Shown here: in pieces, positions 339 through 23,155 of the stretch | How positions within the stretch are numbered: position 1 is the first letter of the stretch | Layout: each line of letters begins with the position of its first letter | IMG/VR virus record: IMGVR_UViG_3300032893_000276 | Span: 1-23,155 of that record | Length of the DNA: 23,155 nucleotides | Strand: one strand, 5' to 3' | Origin: a virus | Made by a program: the position numbers and the translations under genes | Notes under the pieces: generated by a model | Told to the model about the DNA's origin: nothing | What the model saw: the letters and a program-made list of their open reading frames with translations, nothing else | Databases searched by the model: none

Positions 339-778
339 GCGGCCTCTTGACCGTAATGCTCGTCGCAGTAGCGCGAGACTTCCGCTTCGAGTTCGTCGAT
401 TCCCATGTCGTGCAGGATGTGAGCACAGACGTTCATCATGGCACCGAATACCTTCGTGAATTCGACTTCGTCCAACGTGTCGTAACTAATGCTTTTCGGA
501 AGGAACAGTACTTCGCCGTCGACCGTGATGAGCTCCTCAGTGTGACCGGCCGCAATCGCCACGGCCTTTCGAAACTTCTCGAAGTTATCGTACTTCTCCT
601 GGTTCGAATACGTGAGGTTCAGCAAGGCAAAGGCCAGCTTGTGATGCTGATACGAACGCGGCTTCACGATATCGCCACGGTAGACTTCGCCGACCTTGTA
701 CTTGCGCATGACTTCCTGAGACGGTTCGTCTGCAGGCGCGAAGCCGGAAAGCGTGCGCTTAAGGAATAGCCGCGCCAT
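335..778 (-). CDS. DUF1367 family phage protein
   Basis: This 147-residue protein resembles the DUF1367 family found beside recombination genes in lambdoid phages. Matching features are the N-terminal LFLKRTLSGFAPADEPSQE region, a KVGEVYRGDIVKPRSYQHHKLAFALLNL segment (written here in parts: KVGEVYRGDI then KPRSYQHHK), and the later PKSISYDTLDEVEFTKVF stretch, close to the family's RPRSISFxxMDExEF signature. No biochemical role is established for the family as far as I know. The gene overlaps the 3' end of bet by 20 bases and the DUF1364 start by 4, so it belongs to the same leftward transcript. Confidence 0.8.
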   Translation of the reverse strand: MARLFLKRTLSGFAPADEPSQEVMRKYKVGEVYRGDIVKPRSYQHHKLAFALLNLTYSNQEKYDNFEKFRKAVAIAAGHTEELITVDGEVLFLPKSISYDTLDEVEFTKVFGAMMNVCAHILHDMGIDELEAEVSRYCDEHYGQEAA

Positions 779-1622
779 GACGCTCGTCCGGGGGCAACAA
801 AGCGAGGAACTCTCGGAACTTGCCCTTGGTGATGATCTTGCGCTTCGCGAGTGCGTCGAATACGGCCGAGTAGACTTCGGAGAAGGCGTTGAGGTACGCC
901 TCGGCGTAGTCTCTCAGCGCCTTCGCCTGCTCGTACTCGTCCTTGTACTTGTCCTCGACGTTTTCGAGGATTCCCTTGATGGCCTCGACGTGCTTGTCGA
1001 TTTCCTCTGGCGGAATGTTCGACGTGTCCGGCCGTGGACCATGATCGATTGGCGTCACGTCGATAATGCGTTGCGCCTCGTCCTCGTCATAGACGCCGAC
1101 AAACCCGAACGCAAGGCGCGCACACTGAATCATTGCCTTGTGGCGAAGCATCCGGCGAGGATGGGTCTGCCACGGGCCTTGAATGTCGTTGCCATTACGA
1201 TCCTTCGGCTGGCGGTAGACTTCGTCGAAGTACTCCTTCACGCAGATCGGGTGCTGGCGGTCCTTACGGTGAATGCGGCACTCGATCCAGCTCGGGATAC
1301 TCTTGCCGTTTAGTTCGCCCTCGACGAAGTCCATGCCATCGAACTGAGGATTCGAGTTGATGATGCGCGACCAGCCGTCGACACCCACGACCGGGACGAT
1401 GCCGCCGCCTTTGTCCGGGAAGGCGTAAATTTCCTTCGTCCAAGGGTTGAGCTCGTATTGGTCGGCGACAACGCAGAGCGCCATCAGCTGCTCGACACTC
1501 GCGTCGCCTTTGAAAGCCGTGGCCTTCAGGGTGTGAAGCATCTTGTCCGGGTCCACGCCGAAGCGGGTGGCCATGCGGACGATGACGGAATTGGACGGTG
1601 CGGCCTTGACTACGGCGTTCAT
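759..1622 (-). CDS. bet: Bet/RecT-type single-strand DNA annealing protein
   Basis: This 287-residue protein belongs to the lambda Bet/RecT family, which binds single-stranded DNA and promotes strand annealing in phage recombination, normally with a 5'-3' exonuclease. Family hallmarks are LNPWTKEIYAFP (about residues 58-69), VVGVDGWSRIIN (78-89) and WQTHPRRMLRHKAMIQCAR (151-169). The frame is open further upstream, but ATG 1622 is preferred because GAGGTAACG lies directly before it and matches the family N-terminus. That Shine-Dalgarno overlaps the stop codon of the small basic ORF upstream. No Exo or Gam gene is seen in the window. The C-terminal tail, about residues 190-287, is less conserved and partly charged. 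Confidence 0.93.
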   Translation of the reverse strand: MNAVVKAAPSNSVIVRMATRFGVDPDKMLHTLKATAFKGDASVEQLMALCVVADQYELNPWTKEIYAFPDKGGGIVPVVGVDGWSRIINSNPQFDGMDFVEGELNGKSIPSWIECRIHRKDRQHPICVKEYFDEVYRQPKDRNGNDIQGPWQTHPRRMLRHKAMIQCARLAFGFVGVYDEDEAQRIIDVTPIDHGPRPDTSNIPPEEIDKHVEAIKGILENVEDKYKDEYEQAKALRDYAEAYLNAFSEVYSAVFDALAKRKIITKGKFREFLALLPPDERHGAAIP

Positions 1623-1624
1623 CG

Positions 1625-1762
1625 TTACCTCGGTCGTGGACCGAACTGACGCACCTTGGCGCGTGCATTCGGGTTCGGCATGTAGGTGTAGAGGACTTGG
1701 CGCATGCGCCGACGTATCCGACGGTTGCGCCATTCGCGGAACTTGCGGAGAAAGAAGTTCAC
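1625..1762 (-). CDS. Small basic protein, 45 codons, upstream of bet
   Basis: Translation from GTG 1762 gives 45 residues beginning MNFFLRKFREWRNRRIRRRM and ending VRQFGPRPR, with many arginines. The GTG overlaps the TGA of the preceding coiled-coil gene (GTGA), and the TAA lies inside the GAGGTAACG ribosome binding site of bet. It therefore fills the gap between its neighbours exactly, in the same style as the rest of the operon. The strong positive charge would suit a nucleic-acid-binding peptide, but this is inference and I recognise no family. It falls below common minimum-length cut-offs. Confidence 0.55.
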   Translation of the reverse strand: MNFFLRKFREWRNRRIRRRMRQVLYTYMPNPNARAKVRQFGPRPR

Positions 1763-16880: not shown

Positions 16881-17159
16881 ATGAGCAACTATTCAGGCCG
16901 GCCGCGCGTCGGTTGGGTGCATCCGAAGGAGGCGACGGGGCCAAACGCCAAGCAGGCGACGCTCGAGGCGGGTGCCGGCAATATCGAGGCGGAGCCGCCA
17001 GCGTTGCAGGAAGTGGCGAATCCGCGTCCTACAGTCGACGGCGAGGCTTACCCCACCCCGCGCGACTCAGGAACGATGGCGGACGGCCAGACTGGCGGCA
17101 ACTACGAGCAGGTGAAGATCCCGGACCTGCAGGTCGCGCAGGGCGAGGACGGAGACTAA
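16881..17159 (+). CDS. Disordered small structural-region protein
   Basis: AAAGGAG precedes ATG 16881. The 92 residues begin MSNYSGRPRVGWVHPKEATG and are rich in Gly, Pro, Ala and acidic residues, with no hydrophobic core, so the protein is probably mainly unfolded. It ends VAQGEDGD. No family is recognised. It sits between two genes of the head module, each with a separate strong ribosome binding site. Confidence 0.6.
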   Translation: MSNYSGRPRVGWVHPKEATGPNAKQATLEAGAGNIEAEPPALQEVANPRPTVDGEAYPTPRDSGTMADGQTGGNYEQVKIPDLQVAQGEDGD

Positions 17160-17162
17160 CCC

Positions 17163-17564
17163 ATGACAGACGCAAGGCTGCTTGACGACTGTCAGGCTGC
17201 GGCGCTCCTCGCTCCGGTGAGCGCGGCGAACACTGCCGCGGCCACGAGCGGATCGGGGCTCTGGCTCGACATCTCGAACTTCGTCGGCGATGTTCTCGTC
17301 GCGCAGAACGTCGGCGTCTGCACGGGCGCGGGCTCCATCAACGGTAAGCTCCAGGCCGCGAGTGATGTGAACGGGACGGGTGCGGCGGACGTGAGCGGGG
17401 CGACCTTCACCTCGGTGACGGCCTCGAACAATGCCCAGATCTACGCGATCAGTCCCGACCAGGTGCCGGCCGCGAAGACCTTCATCGGCTACGTCGGCAC
17501 GATCGCTGGCTTTTCCGCGGTGCTGGTGAGTGTCACGGCTCACGGTCGCAAGCGCATCGTCTGA
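17163..17564 (+). CDS. Beta-rich virion protein, decoration-like
   Basis: This 133-residue protein has an alpha-helical start (LLDDCQAAALLAP) and then a long beta-rich stretch: GLWLDISNFVGDVLVAQNVG, GSINGKLQAASDVNGTGAAD, and a final FIGYVGTIAGFSAVLVSVTA. That order recalls head-decoration or fibre-like proteins encoded beside the capsid in other phages. The call is by general pattern, not by a named family. Its TGA overlaps the ATG of the head-tail joining gene by one base. Confidence 0.55.
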   Translation: MTDARLLDDCQAAALLAPVSAANTAAATSGSGLWLDISNFVGDVLVAQNVGVCTGAGSINGKLQAASDVNGTGAADVSGATFTSVTASNNAQIYAISPDQVPAAKTFIGYVGTIAGFSAVLVSVTAHGRKRIV

Positions 17565-17854
17565 TGTTCGCCGAGAACCTGTCGGCGTTCTTCCAGGACT
17601 TCGCGCTGACCGCAGTCGCCAACGGCTACACGGCGCAAGTCATCTTCGACGCCCCGGACGAGAACGTCATGGGACAGCGCGTACAAAGCGCTGAGTACAC
17701 CATCACGTTTCCGACCGGGGCGCTGGGGAATCTCACCTACAACGTCGCCGTGACCGTGAACGGCGTCGCCTACAAGGTGCGGCAGTGTCACCAGATAGAA
17801 GACGGCAACTTGCAGCGCGCGACGCTGGAAGCTGTGACTGCCCTTGTGGCGTGA
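17564..17854 (+). CDS. Head-tail joining protein, lambda gpFII-like
   Basis: This 96-residue protein resembles gpFII, which joins the tail to the filled head. After an N-terminal helix (ENLSAFFQDFALTAVANG) comes VIFDAPDENVMGQRVQSAEY, comparable with the family's FDDPE...GQGVRVEG segment. Paired strands follow (GNLTYNVAVTVNGVAYKVRQ) and a final QRATLEAV strand. Length is close to the usual 110-120. Position after capsid and small head genes agrees. The start is the TGATG junction with the upstream gene. Confidence 0.65.
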   Translation: MFAENLSAFFQDFALTAVANGYTAQVIFDAPDENVMGQRVQSAEYTITFPTGALGNLTYNVAVTVNGVAYKVRQCHQIEDGNLQRATLEAVTALVA

Positions 17855-17864
17855 GGAGAGGCAT

Positions 17865-18068
17865 TTGAGCAACAGAGTGTTGACGACACACGGGCTGATT
17901 GAGCTCTCGCAGCTCGACGTGAGCGACCATGTGGAGATCGGAGACGGTTACCGCAAGGTGATCGTCCAGTATCGGCTGGACGACGAGATCGTGAGACAGT
18001 CGGTTTTTGTCGATTTACTGCGACCGAACGGCGCTGATGCCGTGCCCGGTACATTGAACGGGAGATAG
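17865..18068 (+). CDS. Hypothetical protein, 67 residues
   Basis: TTG 17865 follows a strong GAGGAGAGG and lies ten bases after the previous stop; an upstream in-frame TTG at 17844 would overlap that gene. The 67 residues begin MSNRVLTTHGLIELSQLDVS and include DYxKVIVQYRLDDEIVRQSV-like beta strands (here GYRKVIVQYRLDDEIVRQSV). No family is recognised. It is probably a small structural or assembly protein in the head-to-tail transition. Confidence 0.65.
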   Translation: MSNRVLTTHGLIELSQLDVSDHVEIGDGYRKVIVQYRLDDEIVRQSVFVDLLRPNGADAVPGTLNGR

Positions 18069-18071
18069 CAC

Positions 18072-18542
18072 TTGGCTAACACCACCGCGATCTGCACTTC
18101 CTTCAAGTCTGAGCTGATGCTCGGGGCGCACCAATTTGGGAGTGTGACTATCGTCTCGCGAGGTTCCCTGACCTCACCTACGACCGACACTCTGAAGGCG
18201 GCGCTCTACCTCACGACGGGTTCAGTCGGCGCGGGCACGACAGCCTATAGCGCGACGAATGAGGTGTCGGGCACCAACTACTCAGCAGGCGGCGTGACGG
18301 TGACGAATGCCACGGCGCCTACGACTTCCGGCACCACCGCATACTGGACGCCATCAGCGGCAATCGTCTACACGACGGTCACGCTTTCGACAGCTTTCGA
18401 CACGGTGCTGCTCTACAACTCGACGCAGAGCAATCGCGCGATCCTGACGTACAACTTCGGATCGACCACGGTCACGGCCGGCACGTTGACGCTCAACATG
18501 CCGACGAACGACTCGACGCACGCGCTCATTCAGCTGAACTGA
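18072..18542 (+). CDS. Phage tail/structural protein of the MANTTAICTSFK type
   Basis: This 156-residue beta-rich protein begins MANTTAICTSFKSELMLGAH and continues TDTLKAALYLTTGSVGAGTT, AYSATNEVSGTNYSAGGVTV. I recognise this N-terminal pattern from small proteins near tail or fibre genes of many tailed phages, where the function is not settled. The second half is Thr/Ser-rich with short strands and no Cys. TTG 18072 is supported by GGGAG upstream and by the conserved N-terminus. It marks the change from head genes to the Thr-rich surface-protein block. Confidence 0.7.
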   Translation: MANTTAICTSFKSELMLGAHQFGSVTIVSRGSLTSPTTDTLKAALYLTTGSVGAGTTAYSATNEVSGTNYSAGGVTVTNATAPTTSGTTAYWTPSAAIVYTTVTLSTAFDTVLLYNSTQSNRAILTYNFGSTTVTAGTLTLNMPTNDSTHALIQLN

Positions 18543-18543
18543 C

Positions 18544-18672
18544 GTGAGCGTTCTCTACGTCCCGCTGTCCTTCATGCCGGGATGGTGCTGCGGGAAGTCC
18601 TATATCTGGCCGAGAAGGCTCCGCCACAAAGGCGCTCACCGTTATTACGGACAGACGAGGTGCAAGGCGTGA
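18544..18672 (+). CDS. Cys-containing small basic ORF, 42 codons
   Basis: GTG 18544, one base after the preceding stop, opens a 42-residue frame beginning MSVLYVPLSFMPGWCCGKSY, followed by WPRRLRHKGAHRYYGQTRCK. It has three Cys residues and a net positive charge. Its TGA overlaps the GTG of the next gene (GTGA). There is little ribosome binding site, so translation would depend on coupling. No family is recognised. Confidence 0.45.
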   Translation: MSVLYVPLSFMPGWCCGKSYIWPRRLRHKGAHRYYGQTRCKA

Positions 18673-19211
18673 GGCTCTTTCTTGCGTTGTTGTTCGTGTC
18701 CACGGCCTTTGCGGATGATCACACGCTCACATGGGCGCGGCCGCTCATCAAGAGCGACGGGACGGCGATCGCATCCACCAAAGCGCTGACCTACACGGTA
18801 CTCCATGCGACGTCGGACAACTGCATGGACTTGCCAGACTCGTCGGTCTTCAAGAGCCTAGTCACTGGGCTCACGGTACTGACTTGGGTGAACGCAGGGG
18901 CAGCGCCTGGGTTTCACTGGTATCAGATTCAGGCGTTATCCGGCACGACGGTCTTCGCCTACACGAACCCTGTCTGTATGGCGGTCATGGGATTTACACC
19001 AGCGCTTCAGGCGGGACCTGCGTACTCGCCAGTTAAGACCACCGACGCGCTGGTTCTTCTCGCCGTCGGCACGATCACCGCAGGGACGTCGTGCGACCTC
19101 ACGCAATCAATCGTCCAGGGCGGCGCGACGTACTACGTGGTGCCGGTTGCTGCGGTGACGTTGAGCGATCCTGCATCGGAGCCGACCGCCCTTGTCGCGA
19201 AATGCTTTTAA
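18669..19211 (+). CDS. Secreted beta-sandwich-like protein with signal peptide
   Basis: GTG 18669 overlaps the previous TGA and gives 180 residues. The N-terminus MRLFLALLFVSTAFADDH is a good signal peptide with likely cleavage after AFA at residue 15. The mature part has strands and two paired Cys regions (NCMDLP, NPVCMAV, TSCDLT) and reads like fibronectin type III repeats (FHWYQIQALSG, TYYVVPVAAV). A signal peptide is unexpected for a virion protein, since capsids assemble in the cytoplasm. It could be a periplasmic or surface protein made from the phage, or the signal-like start could be used otherwise. Confidence 0.65.
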   Translation: MRLFLALLFVSTAFADDHTLTWARPLIKSDGTAIASTKALTYTVLHATSDNCMDLPDSSVFKSLVTGLTVLTWVNAGAAPGFHWYQIQALSGTTVFAYTNPVCMAVMGFTPALQAGPAYSPVKTTDALVLLAVGTITAGTSCDLTQSIVQGGATYYVVPVAAVTLSDPASEPTALVAKCF

Positions 19212-19296
19212 AGCTCTGGCGCTGGCTTCTCTCGCATTGGCGGCGGCGCAGGCTGGACGCGCCGAGTCTATCTACACCGACGATCTCAGGAGTTAA
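19192..19296 (+). CDS. Possible 34-codon signal-peptide-like ORF
   Basis: In a frame different from both neighbours, TTG 19192 opens 34 codons beginning MSRNAFKALALASLALAAAQ and ending AESIYTDDLRS. It looks like a signal peptide: a basic n-region, a Leu/Ala h-region, and an AGRA-type cleavage site. It overlaps the end of the signal-peptide gene at 18669 and stops just after the AGGAG ribosome binding site of the next gene, a common layout for coupled genes. A GGAG lies about ten bases before the TTG. Confidence 0.35.
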   Translation: MSRNAFKALALASLALAAAQAGRAESIYTDDLRS

Positions 19297-19300
19297 TGGC

Positions 19301-19624
19301 ATGTCACGAGTCACGATTCCCGTAACGGTCACACTCACTCGCAACGGTGGCAAGGTTCCGGCGACTCTCGCCGAGGTGGCGAAGGTCGTCTCGCAGATGT
19401 CGGCGGACAATGGGGCTAACTGGACCTCACTTCCAGACCAGCCGAACACGGTGACAGACATCGTGGTCGACTCCCTCGACCCTGGGAGCTACCTGGTGCG
19501 TGCGGCGGAGGTCGACACGCAGACACCGCCTCTCACGAGTGCGTGGGCGCAGGCCTCCTTTACGGTCGTCGCTCCGTTGCCGGCGCTCGACCCTCCAGTG
19601 CTCGGTTCTCCGACTGTGAGCTGA
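19301..19624 (+). CDS. Fibronectin-like structural protein, 107 residues
   Basis: ATG 19301 follows AGGAG with eight-base spacing and gives a single beta-sandwich-like domain: SRVTIPVTVTLTRNGGKVPA, ADNGANWTSLPDQPNT, and DPGSYLVRAAEVDTQTPPLT, ending ASFTVVAPLPALDPPVLGSP. The pattern is that of a fibronectin type III or Ig-like module, often used for weak surface binding. An alternative ATG at 19202 would add 33 residues (MLLKLWRWLLSHWRRRRLDA...), but it overlaps the previous gene and the internal ribosome binding site is stronger. Confidence 0.65.
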   Translation: MSRVTIPVTVTLTRNGGKVPATLAEVAKVVSQMSADNGANWTSLPDQPNTVTDIVVDSLDPGSYLVRAAEVDTQTPPLTSAWAQASFTVVAPLPALDPPVLGSPTVS

Positions 19625-19628
19625 AGCA

Positions 19629-20522
19629 GTGCTGCTTCTCACCAGCACTAGCGACATTGTTCAGGTCGTCACTGGAGCGGCCAGTACGATCGACGTGCAT
19701 ACGTCCTACATGGACAATAATGCCGGCACGATCACGCCCGGACGAACGAACACTGCAATCATCAGCACCGCGACCACCACGACTGTCGTGGCTGCGCCTG
19801 GCTCGAGCGTTCAGCGGAACGTCCGGCATATCAACGTCGCGAACAACGACGCCACGAACTCGTGCGCGATCACGGTCCAGCATTACGACGGCACGACGAC
19901 CGAGGTGCTGTACAAATGCACGCTGCTGCCAGGTGAGGAGCTCGTCTTCACTCAGGGCGGCATCTGGGTGCATTACGACGTTTACGGCGGAGCCTATCAG
20001 GCGACCACGCAGGCGAAGCTGCTGTTCAACTCTTCGACTACCTCGCAGGGCGCGGGGTTCGCTTCTGATACGTATCTCACGGGTTCGAACATCCTCCTGC
20101 CAACGAGTCGCCCGATTGTCGGGACGCGGTTTCGTATCTGGTTCCACGTATCGAAGACGGCCGCTGGTACTGCAACCCCGATCCTGAACCTGAGATACGG
20201 TACTGGCGCATCGACCTCAGACACTGCGTTGTTGACTTTCACCTTTGCCGCCGGCACACCCGCCGCAGACGTTGCCTATGTCACGGTCGATACGGTTTTT
20301 CGCTCCGTCGGATCAGGTACATCGGCGGTAGTCTCTGGCATCGCTAACATGGGTACCAACCTAGCGACCACCGGCTTTTCGAACGCCGTCAAGAATGTTC
20401 AGGTGACATCAAGCGGCTTCGATTCGACCACGGCCAACACGTATCTCGGCCTCTCTGTGAATGGTGGTTCGTCTGCAGCATGGACGGTGCAGCAGGTAGC
20501 CGCCCAGTTGATGAACTTCTGA
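19629..20522 (+). CDS. Beta-rich phage surface/structural protein, 297 residues
   Basis: GTG 19629 lies four bases after the upstream stop. The protein is Thr/Ser/Ala-rich and almost wholly beta. An N-terminal section (LTSTSDIVQVVTGAASTIDV, then RHINVANNDATNSCAITVQH) resembles a tail-protein head domain with a LLPGEELVFTQGGIWVHYD segment. The C-terminal section (FRIWFHVSKTAAGTATPILN, DTALLTFTFAAGTPAADVAY) looks like a carbohydrate-binding-style sandwich. I assign it to the virion surface by composition and neighbourhood; no named family is recognised. Confidence 0.65.
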   Translation: MLLLTSTSDIVQVVTGAASTIDVHTSYMDNNAGTITPGRTNTAIISTATTTTVVAAPGSSVQRNVRHINVANNDATNSCAITVQHYDGTTTEVLYKCTLLPGEELVFTQGGIWVHYDVYGGAYQATTQAKLLFNSSTTSQGAGFASDTYLTGSNILLPTSRPIVGTRFRIWFHVSKTAAGTATPILNLRYGTGASTSDTALLTFTFAAGTPAADVAYVTVDTVFRSVGSGTSAVVSGIANMGTNLATTGFSNAVKNVQVTSSGFDSTTANTYLGLSVNGGSSAAWTVQQVAAQLMNF

Positions 20523-20523
20523 T

Positions 20524-22275
20524 GTGGCTACACCCACCCTGGTTCAGCACGTCGTCTGGCAGATGTCGAATGAGGCCGGTAACGCTTTCAAGCTGACGCT
20601 GCCGAATGCGTCGCTTTCTAACAATTGCCTCATCCTGAAGATTTACTACCCATCGGGGGTGAGTGTCAGTTCGATTGTGGACGACTCAAATACGTGGTCC
20701 ACGACTCCTATCGCTACGGTCACGGATGCTGGGAACAGCATCATCGTGGCCGTCTTTGCGGTCTACGGGGCAACGGCTGGTGCGAAGACCATCACCGTGA
20801 CCTTCAGCAGCACGGCGACGACGGCGTTCAATCCCGCGTTTCAGGAGTGGACGAATATCGCCACTTCGTCGGCGCTCGATGGTACGCCGTCTGCGATTGT
20901 TGGAGTGGGCACGAGGGCGGCACCTGGGATTGAGAACATCGCCTCGGGTTCATTCAATACATCATCCGATGGCGATTTGATCCTGCACTTCGGGCAGGTA
21001 ACTGGCTGGGCGAATAACGGAGACGCCGGCCGGTACATGGGCGTGGCCGCGGCTGGACAACTTGACGGCATCTCCAAGATAGACCGCGACACTGGATACA
21101 CGCTCGCTCAGGTAGACCTCGATCAAGGGTACTTCTGTGAGTACACGGTTCAGGCGACTCACGGCGCGACGAACCCAGCCGCAAGGGTTACGGATTACCA
21201 GAATGCCGGGTGGGCTTCGATCACCCTGGCGTTGAAGTCCGCGAGTGCTGGAACGGCCCCGTCTGCGGGGACGCGGGTATTTGGGTTACAGCACTTCAAG
21301 CCCGTAGGAACCGGTGGTACAGGTCTCATCGACTACCCGTGGCAATTCCCGCGGGTGGGTAACACGTTCATCGTTGGAACGTCCGATCCATCGGACCAGA
21401 TCCAGGTATTCGCGATCAACGGTCCGATCAACGGTCCGTGGACCAAGGTGACCTCGACCACTGGTGAGCCCACGATGCTCTACAAGACGAGCGGGATCGC
21501 GACCGACAACGAGGTAATGATCCTCACGCTCTGGGACCAGGCAACGCACAACTACGTGCAGGGATGCATGTACGACATCGTGTACGGTGGCCAGTACGAC
21601 ACGAGCGCGAACGTCAGTAATGGCAGTTTCACGATTCCTGGCAATACGCTTGATTCGCCCGCCATTACTCCGGGAGTTTCCAGCGGAATAGTCGTAAACG
21701 TCGTAGGCCTTGCGACCGGGCCGCCGGACTCTCTGGTGACTCCGGGAGGGGTTTTCGTCTCGGTCTACTACACGGGCGAGTCGGATGCCTCCTCGATGGA
21801 CAATGGCGACTGTCACGGCTTTTATGTCTATTCGAGCAATGCGACTCAACACTGGGTCTATCACGACGCTGGGTCTGGGACTTCCGGGGATGCGAACGGC
21901 GTAGCTGTTTCGATCTCCTCTGGTCCTCAGATCACCTCGCAGCCGACGAACCAGTACGCTTACCCAGGCAGGTCCGTCACTTTCTCGGTTACTGCGAGCG
22001 CTTCGAGCGGTTCTTTGTCATATCAGTGGTACAAGAACGGAAACTCGATCGGGAGTGCCACCTCCTCGACCTATACGTTCACGCCGAACATTCAGACGGG
22101 CGTTGCGGACACGTACTACGTCAAGGTGACCGACAGCAACAGCTTCACGTATAGCGCGACTGTCGAAGTGATTTTCTATTTGCCGATGTTCCCCACGAAA
22201 GGCCTTCATGCCGCTGACCGTGATGACGGTTCTCAGGACTACAAGAGTGAACTGACGCTGCTGCGGTGGTTCTAG
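20524..22275 (+). CDS. Tail fibre/adhesin-like protein with C-terminal Ig domain
   Basis: This 583-residue beta-rich protein begins at GTG 20524, one base after the previous stop. Residues about 1-240 read as one sandwich-type domain and about 250-465 as a second. Residues about 468-551 are an Ig-like domain: QITSQPTNQYAYPGRSVTFS, then LSYQWYKNGNSIGSATSSTY with its Trp and the YxVKVTDS strand. Ig-like domains in phages are common accessories of surface proteins. The last 25 residues (LHAADRDDGSQDYKSELTLL) differ in composition. The TAG stop is followed in the same frame by the next gene. Confidence 0.7.
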   Translation: MATPTLVQHVVWQMSNEAGNAFKLTLPNASLSNNCLILKIYYPSGVSVSSIVDDSNTWSTTPIATVTDAGNSIIVAVFAVYGATAGAKTITVTFSSTATTAFNPAFQEWTNIATSSALDGTPSAIVGVGTRAAPGIENIASGSFNTSSDGDLILHFGQVTGWANNGDAGRYMGVAAAGQLDGISKIDRDTGYTLAQVDLDQGYFCEYTVQATHGATNPAARVTDYQNAGWASITLALKSASAGTAPSAGTRVFGLQHFKPVGTGGTGLIDYPWQFPRVGNTFIVGTSDPSDQIQVFAINGPINGPWTKVTSTTGEPTMLYKTSGIATDNEVMILTLWDQATHNYVQGCMYDIVYGGQYDTSANVSNGSFTIPGNTLDSPAITPGVSSGIVVNVVGLATGPPDSLVTPGGVFVSVYYTGESDASSMDNGDCHGFYVYSSNATQHWVYHDAGSGTSGDANGVAVSISSGPQITSQPTNQYAYPGRSVTFSVTASASSGSLSYQWYKNGNSIGSATSSTYTFTPNIQTGVADTYYVKVTDSNSFTYSATVEVIFYLPMFPTKGLHAADRDDGSQDYKSELTLLRWF

Positions 22276-23155
22276 GTGGACCTGGAACTAAAAAAATGGT
22301 TTGACGAGACCTTCGAGTTCTCAGCCGGTGGTGGTGTTAGCAAGAACCTCGCCGGCCAGAGCGCGACGTTCACTGAGGGCACGCTAACTCGGTCTATCGC
22401 CTACGCGGTCACGGGGCAGTCGGTCGCGTCGACTGAGGGCACGATCAGTCGCGGCGTTTCCTATGCCGTCACTGGTATAGCGATCGCCTCTGCTGAAGGC
22501 GCGATCACCGCAGCGTGGTCTGGAAGTGCCAGTCTCGTCGGCCAAGCAATCACCTCGACGGAAGGTGCCATAACGCCTACCGTCGGCTATGCGGTGACGG
22601 GACAGTCGGGGACCATCACCGAAGGCGCTGTCTCGTACTCGGTCTCGTATGCACTCGTCGGTGAGGCGATCACCTCGACCGAGGGGACGATCACCGCCAG
22701 CACCGGCGGCAATGTCACTCTGTCCCTTGCCGGTCAGCTGATCACCTCGACCGAGGGCACGCTGACGGCCGCATGGTCTGGCAGCGCGTCTCTAGTAGGT
22801 CAGACGCTCACCTCGACCGAAGGTGCTCTCAGCTATACCGTCTCGTATTCGCCAGCCGGTCAGGCACTGACCTCGACTGAGGGGACAGTCACCGACACGG
22901 TGACTTATGGGATGGTCGGTGAGTCGGCGACGCTCACGGAAGGCTCGATCAGCGCTTCCGTCGGCGGCAACGTCACGATCACGCTGACGGGCCTTGCCGC
23001 AGTTTTCAGCGAAGGCACGATCACCGCGACGTGGAGCGGGACGGTCTCGCTTGCCGGCCAGCAGCTTGCCAGCACGGAGGGTGTACCGGCCCGAGAGGTC
23101 GACTACGTCGTCACTGGCCGTTCAGCGACTACCAGCGAAGGGTCGCTGACTTATA
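22276..23155 (+). CDS. Tandem-repeat surface protein, open at window end
   Basis: GTG 22276 directly follows the TAG of the upstream gene and the frame stays open to the window edge, so at least 293 residues are encoded. After a 20-residue start (MDLELKKWFDETFEFSAGGG) come thirteen units of about 20-23 residues with the consensus GQxxTSTEGxIT. The repeats alternate short beta strands, as in beta-helix or stacked-sandwich fibres. Similar GQ...EG/QG repeats occur in phage structural genes as I recall them. No good ribosome binding site is seen, so expression may rely on coupling or read-through from the previous gene. The C-terminus is not visible. Confidence 0.7.
   Translation, partial: MDLELKKWFDETFEFSAGGGVSKNLAGQSATFTEGTLTRSIAYAVTGQSVASTEGTISRGVSYAVTGIAIASAEGAITAAWSGSASLVGQAITSTEGAITPTVGYAVTGQSGTITEGAVSYSVSYALVGEAITSTEGTITASTGGNVTLSLAGQLITSTEGTLTAAWSGSASLVGQTLTSTEGALSYTVSYSPAGQALTSTEGTVTDTVTYGMVGESATLTEGSISASVGGNVTITLTGLAAVFSEGTITATWSGTVSLAGQQLASTEGVPAREVDYVVTGRSATTSEGSLTY
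22336..23155 (+). repeat. Protein-coding tandem repeat array with 258-base super-period
   Basis: Thirteen units of 60-69 bases encode repeats such as VGQAITSTEGAIT, VGEAITSTEGTIT and AGQALTSTEGTVT. Every fourth unit carries the same insert: the WSG tryptophan codon occurs at 22516, 22774 and 23032, exactly 258 bases apart each time. GGNV inserts occur in the unit before. The array is therefore a higher-order repeat of four units (86 residues). Confidence 0.85.

Follow-up and report, generated by a model that had tools for sequence, protein, structure and literature searches.

The stretch analysed here (the window) is a whole IMG/VR virus record of 23,155 bases (IMGVR_UViG_3300032893_000276), which terminates within a tandem array of short repeats encoded by its last gene. 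The GTG start of this gene at position 22276 is backed by a homologue in L011, one of the related loci described below, which begins MDLDILKWFDETFEFSAGG with an ATG. Following 20 N-terminal residues, the array begins at position 22336 and comprises 13 units of 20, 22, or 24 residues (22336–23154) with the consensus VSYxLxGQxITSTEGTITxx, about 20 residues in length; the successive unit spacings are 20, 20, 22, 20, 20, 24, 22, 20, 20, 24, 22, and 20. Unit 11 falls between cap units and block-start units in character, and its reading as a terminal cap unit was ambiguous (+0.9 bits). The last 28 bases of the window were carried by no other viral contig, and no overlapping contig extended the gene.

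Features of the array gene and its surroundings, in positions of the window.
Feature	Position	Strand	Remarks
phrog_644 gene	18072..18542	+	PHROG match
Upstream gene	20524..22275	+	Ig-like domain near the C-terminus (aa 468–550); Hoc-like PHROG match
Array gene	22276..23154	+	GTG start right after the upstream stop; runs off the contig without a stop, truncating its 3′ part
N-terminal 20 residues (VDLELKKWFDETFEFSAGGG) preceding the array	22276..22335	+	Common to L011 (MDLDILKWFDETFEFSAGG); diverged form in L002
Block 1, units 1–6 (20, 20, 22, 20, 20, 24 residues), ends TGGN	22336..22713	+	Layout matches L005 block 1
Near-identical stretch, 376 bp, 1 mismatch	22354..22729	+	Versus contig 3300032770_000143 (L002/L003)
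Trp-Ser insert following unit 3	22516..22521	+	Trp codon 22516
TGGN insert following unit 6, closes block 1	22702..22713	+	GG[ND] punctuation at the equivalent place in relatives
Block 2, units 7–10 (22, 20, 20, 24 residues = 86), ends VGGN	22714..22971	+	Unit parse
Trp-Ser insert following unit 7	22774..22779	+	Trp codon 22774
VGGN insert following unit 10, closes block 2	22960..22971	+	Unit parse
Block 3, units 11–13 (22, 20, then contig end)	22972..23154	+	Exceeds the usual length of relatives
Trp-Ser insert following unit 11	23032..23037	+	Trp codon 23032

The first-pass annotation had described the units as unequal, with their type recurring at every fourth position, and this description holds, as does the starting coordinate of 22336: Trp-Ser inserts follow units 3, 7, and 11, GGN inserts follow units 6 and 10, and the three Trp codons lie exactly 258 bases apart. 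Self-identity of the protein was 0.417 at a lag of 86 residues and ≤0.26 at all other tested lags in the range 10–139, and DNA self-identity was 0.512 at a lag of 258, the sole lag between 30 and 419 to exceed 0.42. When three WS and two GG inserts were placed at random, 2.4% of layouts showed a common period of whatever length and 0.3% a period of four. The 86-residue spacing is thus real in the window. When the inserts were removed, the 20-residue cores retained a period-4 excess of 0.072 in amino acid identity (permutation p = 0.010) and of 0.035 in DNA identity (p = 0.03); this excess came mainly from units 4, 8, and 12, which sit beside the WS insert, and p rose to 0.17 without those pairs, so most of the periodic signal lies in the inserts and the unit next to them. 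The regularity spans only units 3–13, equivalent to 2.75 blocks, with units 1 and 2 coming before it, and the first GG-bounded block holds six units.

Relatives were recruited by searches of viral contigs (IMG/VR) with a block alignment and a GG-boundary alignment, and layouts were parsed in 14 loci, representing at least ten distinct proteins, all from viral metagenomes; the matches L027 and L037 were left out of the block parse. The relatives share a looser grammar, in which GG[ND] splits the array into 3–6 units, then 3–4, and usually then one final unit. The window has the longest layout (6+4+3, i.e., 6+4+at least 3, the last block being cut by the contig end), and the others read 6+3+1 (L005), 5+3+1 (L006, L011, and L025), 5+4+1 (L024), 4+4+1 (L007–L010 and L018), 4+4 (L012), 5+3 (L020), and 3+3 (L013), together with a first block of 6 cut by the contig end in L002 and an uncertain 4+4 parse in L023, a contig fragment in which the last spacings are 22. 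Array length therefore differs among relatives, as had been anticipated, from 6 to at least 13 units; however, the notion of four units as a fixed block did not survive the comparison, since an exact four-unit (84-residue) block occurs twice in some relatives, others read 5+3 or 3+3, and block lengths of 3–6 rule out a family-wide four-unit block. L007, L008, L009, and L010, which come from different records, have identical layouts, and copy number is thus stable among near-identical phages.

Beyond these contigs, tblastn with the repeat and C-terminal alignments confirmed no relative in the genome_contigs collection, and searches of isolate phages with the window protein, L011, L013, and the C-terminal domains found no homologue, although BLAST low-complexity masking may hide some. 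Weak matches to Synechococcus phage S-RIM2 and to record MW202697 were read as different repeats. Neither Pfam nor NCBIfam matched the array protein above cut-off, its best PHROG match (phrog_9992, E 0.0055) was weak, and exact searching of paper texts with variants of the repeat motif gave no match.

In full-length relatives, the array is often accompanied by an N-terminal beta-rich domain and by a C-terminal domain that is conserved and composed of a hairpin and long helices. L011 combines the N-terminus found in the window with nine units and this C-terminal domain, which recurs in L005, L007–L010, L014, L017, and L018. In L014 (4708–6357), the C-terminal domain is joined to a different repeat of ~20 residues in the middle of the protein (VPAGSLxLTGQVPTV), and because the domain is kept with another repeat, the repeat has the look of a shaft that can be swapped. 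In many relatives, the N-terminal beta-rich region precedes the array within one gene; the separate upstream gene of the window may take the place of this region, and its relationship to the N-terminal portion of the fused array protein of L024 is bridged by L002.

The structure model of the window protein had a mean pLDDT of 45; in the L011 model, the C-terminal domain (hairpin plus long helices) mostly reached 74–89 and the array was mostly ≤55, and the two array models disagreed on strand layout. Foldseek with the array models returned no match at E ≤ 0.001. Upon realignment of the Foldseek PDB list, the adhesin EtpA was best (Z 19.6 over 263 residues, rmsd 3.2, with a model of pLDDT ~45), followed by a beta-helical antifreeze protein (Z 17.4) and several tailspikes (Z 14–16), also with low-confidence array models, and the L011 model aligned with the phage 7-7-1 tail fibre at Z 12.4 over 193 residues (rmsd 3.2; array confidence low). 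Across the tailspikes of HK620, P22, and Pam1, the 7-7-1 long tail fibre, and EtpA, the low-confidence models aligned over 190–280 residues at only 5–18% identity; the array has no sequence match to these families, the domain order of the 7-7-1 fibre is unlike that of the array protein, and no solved structure gave a convincing sequence match to the array. The unit length of 20–24 residues fits the coils of ~20–25 residues in a parallel beta-helix. Because the models are weak, we infer the array fold, which is probably a parallel beta-helix with one unit per rung. A regular fold per 86-residue block had been named as a check on the first reading; no 86-residue domain appeared in the models, in which, at low confidence, the repeating element is the single unit of ~20 residues. 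The period is best read as the spacing of loops over 2.75 blocks, not as a folding domain.

The array gene is of virion type and adjoins structural genes, in keeping with the initial association of such arrays with phage fibres. In the window, terminase, portal, and protease/capsid genes come before it; L006 and L020 have it flanked by the major head protein gene on one side and adaptor/head-closure genes on the other; and in L005, L011, and L014 it precedes terminase and/or portal genes, the L005 portal being of the SU10 type. All eight of the relatives’ records searched contained a phrog_644 match, in several cases shortly upstream of the array gene. In L011, an HNH endonuclease gene is encoded on the opposite strand (1693–2100, −) directly after the array gene. 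At the other end of the window (759–1733, −), ~100 bases are similar at the DNA level to Bet/RecT recombination genes of Pseudomonas phages, with 85–88% identity.

The gene context, together with a comparison to gp10 of phage SU10, an Ig-like protein with similarity both to a minor capsid protein and to a head-fibre domain, itself not seen in the capsid map (PMC9509320), favors a virion surface protein. We lean, with modest confidence, toward the array gene encoding the shaft of such a protein, a fibre or adhesin that is probably beta-helical and grouped into blocks by GG[ND]. Each ~20-residue unit would make up a single turn of a rod that is rich in beta structure and probably folded as a parallel beta-helix, and the GG[ND] loops would partition this rod into blocks; in most relatives, the single terminal unit would connect to an assembly domain at the C-terminus, made of a beta hairpin and long helices, and the Trp-Ser and GGN inserts may enlarge the same rod turn, producing ridges or contact points at block intervals. 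Alongside what was observed directly (the unit layout, the relatives’ block grammar, the domain architecture, the gene neighborhood, and the lack of DNA-level homogeneity between units), we infer a surface location, a role as spacer and binding arm, and a function for the loops.

A head fibre is slightly preferred over a tail fibre, because the gene lies between capsid and head-completion genes in two relatives; as the order of genes varies with phage type, a role in a tail fibre or outside fibres is also possible. That the array forms the shaft of a tail fibre or tailspike, and not of a capsid (head) fibre, falls only a little short of an even prospect, as shafts built as parallel beta-helices are common among tailspikes and are also seen in the 7-7-1 long tail fibre (PMC12796354), and one PHROG matched by the upstream Ig-domain gene is annotated as a tail protein; however, the same upstream gene matches a Hoc-like head decoration, the array gene of L006 and L020 sits between head and connector genes, and the resemblances of SU10 gp10, although this protein was not seen in the capsid map, are to head components.

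Both the location of the array gene, which some relatives have between capsid genes and connector genes, and the Ig-like upstream partner in the window recall head fibres and Ig-like decorations such as phi29 gp8.5, T4 Hoc, and SU10 gp10, to which the array has no sequence match; gp8.5 of phi29, a helical supercoil spike on a beta-tulip base, differs from the array (PMC7602432). Another parallel is provided by crAss-like phages, in which BACON domains form a tandem array in a tail-associated protein, with a copy number that varies by lineage and internal expansion through duplication and horizontal domain transfer (PMC6949934). Both systems thus consist of tandem beta repeats in a phage protein, variable in copy number among lineages, but the BACON unit is a whole domain, whereas the unit in the window is ~20 residues and is grouped by GG loops. 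A repetitive virion shaft is an ordinary kind of object; the family described here is matched by no Pfam, NCBIfam, or PHROGs model searched. Its recurring architecture consists of short beta repeats set in blocks that GG loops punctuate, frequently together with a C-terminal domain that is conserved. Should fibre length or contact points be determined by the blocks, block layout could serve to compare and group phages.

The exact period had also been taken to imply growth by duplication of a four-unit block whose copies then diverged. The divergence is evident, the cores of units 3–6 and 7–10 sharing only 56% amino acid identity, and the exact 86-residue repetition stands; what finds no support is recent copying, because synonymous sites are saturated. 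Between these blocks, dS was 1.42 (about 1.4), and identical codons were found at 21 of 49 conserved residues, where a fraction of 0.42 is expected by chance from codon use. A recent copy of units 3–6 as units 7–10 would leave synonymous matches, and none above chance were seen, so recent duplication is unsupported. Moreover, window units 3–6 are closer to L005 units 3–6 (67.5% amino acid identity of cores, dS 0.97) than to window units 7–10, which also speaks against expansion of the array by recent block duplication. Tandem Repeats Finder detected no tandem array in the DNA at score 30, there was no internal near-exact repeat, and DNA identity between units was ~50%; the absence of near-identical DNA copies speaks against a variable-number DNA tandem repeat, and the absence of a DNA tandem repeat combined with saturated synonymous sites rules out recent or ongoing repeat slippage. 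An exact period in a protein therefore need not imply recent duplication, as here it has no trace in the DNA, and growth by four-unit block duplication, as read from the period, is weakly supported.

Regular spacing may instead be kept by structural selection, with loops projecting at set intervals along the rod for partner contact or packing, whatever the origin of the units. This explanation is plausible but tentative: the GG[ND] loops occupy the same unit place in every relative even though synonymous sites are saturated, and the 4+4 layout recurs in the L007–L010 group, L012, and L018, the proteins of which are otherwise diverged, but the interval varies from 3 to 6 units across relatives, which a strict geometric rule would forbid. 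Tandem duplication of the four-unit (258-base) block as an old event, followed by divergence of the copies, is somewhat doubtful. It is possible because the third block of the window runs to three units or more, against one or none in relatives of comparable completeness, no relative with a readable end having a third long block, and it would account for the repetition of the 22, 20, 20, 24 layout at exactly 86 residues, the identity of WSGSASLVGQ at units 3–4 and 7–8, and the small period-4 excess in the unit cores; however, that signal vanishes without units 4, 8, and 12, the blocks of relatives span 3–6 units, and the codon, dS, and L005 comparisons given above weigh against an old copy as well. 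A more ambitious proposal, which we regard as unlikely on present evidence, is that the array belongs to an uncatalogued family of virion shafts in which GG loops delimit exchangeable beta-helix blocks, so that shaft length and lateral contacts change blockwise between otherwise diverged phages and the C-terminal assembly domain stays fixed.

Beside the 376-bp stretch shared with contig 3300032770_000143, the upstream gene aligns poorly and other stretches are 74–87% identical, and the near-identity stems from either modular exchange of the array or chimeric assembly. An assembly artefact at the contig end, in which the arrays of related phages were joined to give a long array and an apparent period, would fit this near-identity and the fact that both contigs end within the array, but is improbable given that units 1–6 are present in two separate contigs and agree with the L005 layout, and that Tandem Repeats Finder revealed no near-exact internal copies that could make an assembler slip. 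Further upstream, positions 16929–20501 of the window align with L002 1–3646 in stretches of 97–100% identity beside stretches of <50%.
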